Below are positions 9,364 through 27,481 of a stretch of DNA of 41,291 bases, piece by piece (the stretch's first letter is position 1; each line of letters opens with the position of its first letter). A model generated the notes under the pieces. That model worked only from the letters and a program-made list of their open reading frames with translations, did no database searches and was not told where the DNA came from. This DNA comes from Desulfobulbaceae bacterium (GTDB lineage Bacteria; Desulfobacterota; Desulfobulbia; Desulfobulbales; Desulfobulbaceae). A program made the translations under genes and the position numbers. The stretch is taken from NCBI GenBank assembly GCA_015484845.1, contig WFUT01000011.1, positions 1-41,291 of the forward strand, given 5' to 3'.

Positions 9364-10011
9364 CTACAGGCCAAGCTCCTTCCTGATCGCCTCGATCACC
9401 GCGTCACTGCTCACGGCCTCCACATTGAGCAGCAGTCCTTCCTTTTCGTAAAAGCCGATCAGGGGCGCGGTCTTCTCGTTGTAGGTGGCCAGGCGGTGGC
9501 TGATGGCCTCCTCGGTCTCGTCCTCGCGCTGCACGACCCTAGCGCCGCACTTGTCACAGATACCCTCCTGCTTGGGCGGGTTGGACTTGACATTATAGAT
9601 GGCCTGGCACTCGGGGTTCTCGCAGGTCCGGCGGGTGCAGAGCCGGTCGAGGATGACCTCGCGCGGCACGTCGATGTTCACCGCCTTGTCCAGGGTAATG
9701 CCCAGCCGCTCGAGCAGCTTCTTGAGCTCCTCGGCCTGGGGAATGGTGCGGGGAAAGCCGTCGAGCAGGAAACCCTTTTCACAGTCAGGCTCCTGCAGCC
9801 GTTTTTCCATGATGCCCATGATCAGGGAATCGGGCACCAGGTCGCCCCGCTTCATGTATTCCTCGGCCTCCTTGCCCAGCTCGGTTCCTGCCTGCACGGC
9901 GCCGCGCAGGATGTCGCCGGTCGAGATCTGGACCGAGCCGTCAATGGCGGTGAGCAGTTTGGCGACCGTGCCCTTGCCAGCCCCGGGGGCTCCAAGCAGT
10001 ATAAGCTTCAT
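9364..10011 (-). CDS. adk: Adenylate kinase, zinc-lid type
   Basis: A 215-residue long-form adenylate kinase that interconverts ATP+AMP and 2 ADP in the cytosol. The P-loop GAPGAGKG is at residues 7-14, and STGDILR (AMP-binding) and the LLDGFPRT motif follow. The lid domain carries a four-cysteine cluster (CENPEC, then CDKC), so it binds zinc, as in many Gram-positive and deltaproteobacterial enzymes and unlike the E. coli enzyme. The start has GAGGAAG upstream. Its leader is unusual: a MITE at 10051-10205 and, beyond it, a terminator-like hairpin oriented toward adk. Confidence 0.97.
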   Translation of the reverse strand: MKLILLGAPGAGKGTVAKLLTAIDGSVQISTGDILRGAVQAGTELGKEAEEYMKRGDLVPDSLIMGIMEKRLQEPDCEKGFLLDGFPRTIPQAEELKKLLERLGITLDKAVNIDVPREVILDRLCTRRTCENPECQAIYNVKSNPPKQEGICDKCGARVVQREDETEEAISHRLATYNEKTAPLIGFYEKEGLLLNVEAVSSDAVIEAIRKELGL

Positions 10012-10050
10012 CTCTTTCTTCCTCTTTTGTTCTTGCTGGTTGACATGCGA

Positions 10051-10205
10051 CCTAAATCCTGCACTTCGAAAATGAAGAAAAAAATTTTCTTTTGCCGTAT
10101 CAGCGGATTATACGAACGTAATCGTTTTTTTCGACTCACCGACCGGGTGAAGGGTTTTTTTCTTCATTTTCTCGCCCTTCGGGATTGGCAATTGCAGGAT
10201 TTAGG
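10051..10205 (-). mobile_element. MITE with perfect terminal inverted repeats and target duplication
   Basis: A 155-base non-coding element bounded by CCTAAATCCTGCA (10051-10063) and its exact reverse complement TGCAGGATTTAGG (10193-10205). It is flanked on both sides by the direct repeat TGCGA (10046-10050 and 10206-10210). A second inverted pair inside (GAAAATGAAGAAAAAAA and its complement) means a transcript could fold into a long interrupted stem. The CCTA-type ends with a 5-base duplication recall the IS1380 family; the mobilising transposase is not in this window. Strand is given relative to the two related copies at 27054 and 34200. Confidence 0.88.
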
Positions 10206-10210
10206 TGCGA

Positions 10211-10238
10211 AAAAAATCCGGCCACAACCCGTGGCCGG
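10211..10238 (-). terminator. Intrinsic terminator pointing toward adk
   Basis: CCGGCCAC (10218-10225) and GTGGCCGG (10231-10238) form a perfect 8-base stem with a five-base loop. On the minus strand this is followed by ATTTTTTTC, a proper terminator tail. No minus-strand gene is recognised between here and 11651, so it would end a leader or an unannotated short transcript before adk. Confidence 0.6.
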
Positions 10239-26714: not shown

Positions 26715-27481
26715 CGACTTTCCTCCATGGTGGTTATTGCTTTGTTCTGCTGCCGGGGCGGCACCACCCCCTGCCGGACCATCCATGGAACCCATGGCCG
26801 GCCGGGCAAAAGGGCCCACTCTGCCGCCAGGGAACATGCCGGCCGGGATGCGGGAGACACGCACTCGCCCACCCGGGTTCCGCCAGGACGGGGCACCCTG
26901 GAAAGAATATAAGTACGGAAGCGGATCTGTGCGATGTTTTTTCCTGTTCCACCCAAATCCTGCCATTGCCGATCTTGCCGGTGATGCGAGCTACCACGGG
27001 GCACAGACACGTAAAAACACCTCACCTCCTTGATAACAACGCAGATCCGGTGAAATTGCCCATCCAGAAGGACAAAAAAAATCCTTTCACACGGCCGGTG
27101 AGTCAAAAAAAACGAACACGTTCGTATAATCCACTGATACGGCAAGAGAAAATTTTTTCATTTTCGAAGTGCAGGATTCAGGTTGGAGGAACCATTCCCA
27201 GGCTGGAAAGCATGGCGGCTGCAGACGGAAAATCATTACGACCGCCACCGGATCGATGCTCAGAGATGCAACAGGAGCGGCAGGAAGGAATGCACAGGAG
27301 CGCGGTCGCGCCCGTGATAACAGAGGCCAAAAGGGCTCAGCCGCCGGCAGCTTGCCGGGGCGGATGAGAGGCAGTCCGAGCCGGCCGCAGCGAAAGAAGG
27401 CCCTGCCGCCGGCAACATGGCGGTGCCGGCAGATACCAGCGATGGTGGGGCCAGCCTCGGGGATTGCCGGCCAGCGGCCTG
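26715..27481. other. 767-base non-coding stretch
   Basis: No frame here has a ribosome site together with a recognisable domain. It holds a degenerate copy of the MITE (27054-27182). The rest shows no further structure I can support. Confidence 0.6.
27054..27182 (+). mobile_element. Degenerate MITE copy 2
   Basis: About 129 bases align with the reverse complement of the element at 10051-10205. Shared blocks include AATTGCC, GGTGAGTC, CGTTCGTATAATCC, CTGATACGGCAA, GAAAATTTTTT and CATTTTCGAAGTGCAGGATT. The right end TGCAGGATTCAGG has one mismatch to the intact end. The left terminal repeat is eroded, and no target duplication could be found. Confidence 0.75.

Follow-up and report, generated by a model that had tools for sequence, protein, structure and literature searches.

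Insertion in the adk leader

The window, by which we mean the whole 41,291-nucleotide stretch of Desulfobulbaceae DNA analysed here, carries a short insertion between two copies of TGCGA in the leader of the adenylate kinase gene adk, and a second, decayed copy of the same element further along. The features concerned are the following.

9364..10011, minus strand: adk, adenylate kinase (PF00406 and PF05191)
10046..10050, no strand: left copy of the target duplication TGCGA, read from the sequence
10051..10205, plus strand: 155-bp MITE with IS1380-type ends, a short form with the right hairpin deleted
10051..10063, plus strand: left terminal inverted repeat CCTAAATCCTGCA, the same sequence as at the ends of a 1674-bp IS1380 element in genome G091
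10068..10171, plus strand: left hairpin, with arms at 10068-10084 and 10155-10171 that covary between genera
10107..10134, minus strand: promoter-like TCGAAA-16-TATAAT within the MITE, directed towards adk, a candidate only
10184..10193, plus strand: ATTGGCAATT, putative junction left by loss of the right-hairpin module, placed by aligning 12 short copies with 35 long ones
10193..10205, plus strand: right terminal inverted repeat TGCAGGATTTAGG, read from the sequence
10206..10210, no strand: right copy of the target duplication TGCGA, read from the sequence
10218..10238, minus strand: terminator-like hairpin in the adk leader, CCGGCC..GGCCGG with a trailing T7, immediately upstream of the insertion
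26952..27182, minus strand: second MITE copy, long-form and decayed, 231 bp, with ends CCTGAATCCTGCA and GGCAGGATTTGGG and flanks alike at 3 of 5 bases

The start codon of adk lies at 10011 on the minus strand, with the duplication beginning about 35 bases and the MITE about 40 bases upstream of it. Terminal repeats agree at 13 of 13 positions and the duplication at 5 of 5, and the 129 bases between the ends contain an inner inverted pair of 17 bp with 100% complementarity; on re-reading, all of this proved letter-exact as the first-pass annotation had given it. That annotation also suggested that RNA read through the element could fold into a long arm ahead of adk, in keeping with a predicted fold of -61.4 kcal/mol against -39.5 +/- 3.9 for shuffled sequences (z -5.7). 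At 155 bp (below approximately 500 bp), without a transposase gene and with about 100 copies in the genome, the insertion has the size, content and multiplicity of a MITE.

Copies in the genome and empty sites

Allowing at most one mismatch, the 3.38-Mb genome contains 201 occurrences of the 13-bp end, equivalent to the approximately 100 copies given above, compared with 2 occurrences of a reversed control pattern, and a DNA search of the genome recovered at least 40 full or near-full copies in different flanks. From the stretches around genome matches we reconstructed 63 end pairs, a few of which are doubtful pairings with degenerate ends; they comprise 35 long copies (239-245 bp), 12 short ones (146-167 bp) and a remainder of smaller or odd sizes (for example, 36, 56 and 131 bp). 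A perfect 5-bp duplication flanks 33 of the 63, the first base being T in 32 and the last A in 29 of these 33, and the 5-bp target duplication seen at adk recurs, mostly as a T...A pentamer, at its sister copies. We also considered a 3-bp duplication with longer terminal repeats, but several copies have identical pentamers of other composition on both sides (TGGTC, TCTCC, TTCAC), which fits a 5-bp duplication better.

The joined flanks of ten copies were searched in two congeners (G001 and G002). Two clean empty sites, each with a single copy of the target, were found in G001: TTGAA (locus L016) and TCATA (L026). At L026 the site is occupied by the MITE in G002, which makes that insertion older than the split of the window species and G002. 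In a third joined-flank test (L132), both congeners have a gap where the site should be, and this locus was left out of the clean empty sites. The genome copies, their duplications and these empty sites of sister copies bear out the earlier identification of the adk insertion as a MITE.

A probable IS1380 source for the terminal repeats

Full-length elements with matching ends are present in genomes of the same GTDB family. In G091, a 1674-bp IS1380 element is bounded by CCTAAATCCTGCA...TGCAGGATTTAGG, matching at 13 of 13 bases on both sides, with a 5-bp duplication; this is the element of one among 19 transposase copies of near-equal score in that genome, and its end has 17 of 17 bases in common with the right end of the MITE (CCTAAATCCTGCAATTG). 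G081 holds a 1667-bp IS1380 element with a 5-bp duplication and one end matching at 12 of 13. The transposases of G091 and G081 score 293 and 269 bits, respectively, against NF033539 (cut-off 180) and also match PF13701. The IS1380 kinship that the first-pass annotation had offered as a guess is thus supported by sequence comparison, and with its sister copies and the G091 and G081 elements the insertion is neither solitary nor lacking in IS with matching ends.

The proposed search for such IS succeeded in the family and failed in the window genome itself: its assembly (97% complete) gave no match to PF13701 or PF01609, and the two congeners gave none to PF13701. An IS4-superfamily transposase (PF01609) was accordingly rejected as a resident source, as was a candidate resident IS on contig C198, where an end pair 2 kb apart encloses ordinary genes and has mismatched flanks. 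An autonomous partner in the genome of the MITE is usual but not a requirement, and the IS1380 partner could have been lost from the window genome or left unassembled.

We consider it very probable that the adk insert is an IS1380-type MITE and that it arose from a longer element by shortening. An IS1380 transposase would recognise the 13-bp ends in trans, and insertion into a 5-bp target, mostly TNNNA, would duplicate that target.

A longer parent and recurrent loss of its right hairpin

The consensus of the long copies has two hairpins within the terminal repeats; in the copy at adk the right-hand hairpin is missing. To judge from this comparison, that copy is a short form derived from a 243-bp parent by loss of the right hairpin, and the first-pass description of the 155-bp element as intact has to be replaced by that of a deletion derivative. 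The loss maps to two near-direct repeats, ATTGGCAATT and ATTGCCAATT, which bracket the right palindrome (a module of approximately 89 bp), and both junction variants occur. In a tree of the part common to both forms, short copies are scattered among long ones and well-supported branches force at least four changes. The short forms are polyphyletic and the right hairpin was lost several times, probably by slippage between the 10-bp near-direct repeats flanking the palindrome.

The left hairpin retained at adk covaries as well: between genera, arms paired with their own partners form duplexes with a mean of -18.9 kcal/mol, compared with -10.1 kcal/mol for swapped arms, a difference reached in 0 of 20,000 permutations. 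A UUCG-like loop of a small hairpin was dropped as proof of an RNA form, the stem being broken in some members.

A core hairpin common to MITEs with unrelated ends

The right hairpin missing from the adk copy, which we call the core, has a constant inner text, ATCTGCTKYGTT...GCCTYGCATCT, and is present at 26959-27073 in the second window copy (42.2 bits, E 5e-8). A covariance model built on it found matches in 47 of the 146 genomes sampled from the order (26 of 54 genera); with a broader core model, matches came from 40 of the 297 genomes sampled across the phylum (34 of 199 genera). No core pattern was found in viral contigs, and the element had no match in Rfam at gathering score. Sixteen further genomes were reached through chance matches to the 17-base end; the core is absent from 14 of these and present in a Thermodesulfatator MAG and a Desulfoarculaceae MAG.

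The core occurs within MITEs of three IS1380-type ends (CCTAAATCCTGCA, CCTAAATTGAGCG and CCTGAATCCGTGA) with 5-bp duplications; among the listed core-bearing copies of types A and C, most have a perfect one. Elements encoding an IS1380 transposase and carrying the second and third of these ends (CCTAAATTGAGCG and CCTGAATCCGTGA) were found in the relatives G088 and G026. The core also lies inside 154-161-bp MITEs with GTAA-type ends. Among these, 14 copies have flanking 8-bp duplications with seven or more bases alike, and in 10 of the 14 all eight agree. G079 and G395 contain elements that encode an IS66 transposase, end in GTAACTACTCAC and GTAACTATTCAGC and are likewise flanked by 8-bp duplications; the end of MITE L328 is GTAACTACTCAC and that of MITE L329 is GTAACTACTCGC. 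With their GTAA ends and 8-bp duplications, the GTAA-type relatives conform to IS66-derived MITEs. Nine loci holding IS1380 or IS66 elements were searched for the core, and none contained it. The presence of one core in MITEs with other IS1380-type ends and with IS66-type ends indicates that it is most likely a passenger under selection of its own, which would fold as single-stranded DNA or as RNA and might recruit a host factor or soften the effect of insertion.

Several loci add detail on how the core is carried. The Thermodesulfatator MAG (G491; loci L432, L434 and L436) has 26 core copies, with IS1380-type and GTAA-type carriers both visible, and the Desulfoarculaceae MAG KA05 (G493; L433, L435, L437, L439 and L440) has 55, those that were read being of the GTAA type. 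At L310 (G036) a core hairpin is followed directly by a partial tandem second copy, with no recognised terminal repeats. Shorter palindromes with CATCTGCTKYGTTGYC...GCCKCCTYGCATCT-like text and other outer stems occur at L365-L368 and L373 (G404, G436 and G474) and may represent this motif within a further type of repeat. Among cultured relatives, Desulfogranum marinum has related MITEs.

Covariation of the core and its possible causes

In 32 diverse rows, double changes were seen at 35 of 38 core pairs, with a covariation of 0.608 compared with 0.188 for shuffled and at most 0.129 for slid pairings, in an alignment that was fitted to the model and so leans towards structure. The starting alignment, A1, which was not fitted to the model, gave the same sign (0.244 versus 0.118). 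Among 50 rows less than 75% alike, mismatches in paired columns are A-C in 99 cases and G-T in 33 (Wilcoxon test over pairs, p 0.008; sign test, p 0.05), a count over related rows that excludes one conserved T-G column pair and one bulged pair; a first, small set had shown no clear bias (37 versus 27). An A-C mismatch on the written strand corresponds to a wobble on the other, and the folding strand, if a single one folds, is therefore probably the reverse complement, although the strand count is suggestive only.

Two readings of this covariation deserve weight. We give roughly an even chance to the view that the core is a covarying DNA or RNA module, spread across the phylum as the common interior of MITEs from at least two unrelated families (IS1380 and IS66), absent from the full-length IS examined and analogous to eukaryotic CORE-SINE domains, and that it serves its own function, for instance recruitment of a host protein or a lower cost of insertion. 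A serious, if somewhat doubtful, competitor holds that the arms covary solely through template switching between them at replication, with no selected function, and that the core spread by shared ancestry or by recombination between MITEs. Long palindromes are known to be corrected by arm-to-arm template switching, and the changes in the core are nearly all from one Watson-Crick pair to another, with few G-T intermediates on the written strand. However, the internal-loop letters ATCTGC, GTT and GCATCT are conserved phylum-wide while the stems change completely, which counts against template switching because copying from arm to arm would make the arms fully complementary; the bias of mismatches towards wobbles of the opposite strand speaks against it too.

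Consequences for adk

At adk the insertion would lengthen the leader by 160 bases and leave the ribosome-binding region free. In the congener G001, hsp20 and adk stand in the same order, a promoter-like TGGTGTATATT and a terminator-like hairpin resemble those seen here, and there is no MITE. The element is thus already missing from a congener rather than conserved ahead of adk in distant relatives. The proposed comparison of adk orthologues yielded this MITE-free arrangement but not the empty TGCGA itself, which is unreadable in G001 because the bases around the site have diverged; the adk contig of G002 is truncated, and the first-pass opinion that the insertion is probably recent is not borne out by these data.

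The terminator-like hairpin at 10218-10238, which lies between a promoter-like box and adk, may be an adk attenuator or the end of a small RNA. Located downstream of this older structure, the MITE may add a promoter and, as its promoter-like boxes suggest, could restart transcription past the hairpin towards adk. It is unlikely, in our judgement, that the insertion has been domesticated as a regulatory leader in which its hairpin or promoter-like box sets adk expression. Such a role would suit its position close ahead of the start codon and on the 3' side of a terminator-like hairpin common to the congener, the orientation of TCGAAA-16-TATAAT towards adk and the precedent of the IS1380 elements ISEcp1 and ISPme1, which are known to drive adjacent genes (PMC9330008). 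Of 50 sister copies, 20 have both hexamers unchanged, 19 of these with the 16-base spacing, and 39 have them within one change each. On the other hand, G001 lacks the MITE, copies are found in every orientation relative to genes, and matches to consensus promoter boxes carry little weight. A preference of the family for insertion at terminators, judged by eye alone, was dropped as a claim.

The remaining alternative, that the insert is no transposon but a REP/BIME-like repeat (a short palindrome without target duplication) spread by another route, would suit the high copy number, palindromic make-up and mostly extragenic location of the family but is refuted, and in our estimate virtually eliminated, by terminal repeats that match exactly, a duplication of constant 5-bp length, the empty sites and the IS that share the same ends.

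Significance and comparison with known elements

Taken alone, the 155-bp insertion adds a new but ordinary MITE to a known type; the unusual part of its parent form is a core common to unrelated MITE families. If MITEs of unrelated transposases do keep this folded core phylum-wide, small elements carry selected structure and are more than decaying transposon remnants, and the benefit that non-autonomous bacterial elements draw from their interiors becomes testable.

Like the IS1380-family elements ISEcp1, IS1247 and ISPme1, the window MITE has CCT... ends and a 5-bp duplication, and the full-length copies of G091 and G081 (1674 and 1667 bp) are close in length to IS1247, which has 1672 bp and 5-bp repeats (PMC3281130, Table 2). 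It differs from these IS in its length (155-245 bp for the family), in having no transposase and in an interior unrelated to theirs. The relation to the IS66 family is through the core: the ends of the G079 and G395 elements match GTAA-ended MITEs of relatives that hold the same core, whereas these carriers differ from the window element in ends, duplication length and transposase.

Bacterial type II MITEs, such as Chunjie of Geobacter uraniireducens, QMITE1/2 of Coxiella and MITEAba12, resemble the window family in size, copy number, size classes formed by internal deletion, stable fold and similarity to IS at the ends alone (traits as in PMC10969869). What separates the window family from these three is a core common to MITEs of other IS families, Chunjie being set apart by its description. 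In the open-access literature we found no description of a core common to unrelated MITE families. As an analogy only, with no homology claimed and with RNA-copied eukaryotic elements as the other term, the arrangement recalls that of CORE-SINE type elements, in which a conserved central domain is common to otherwise unrelated non-autonomous elements.
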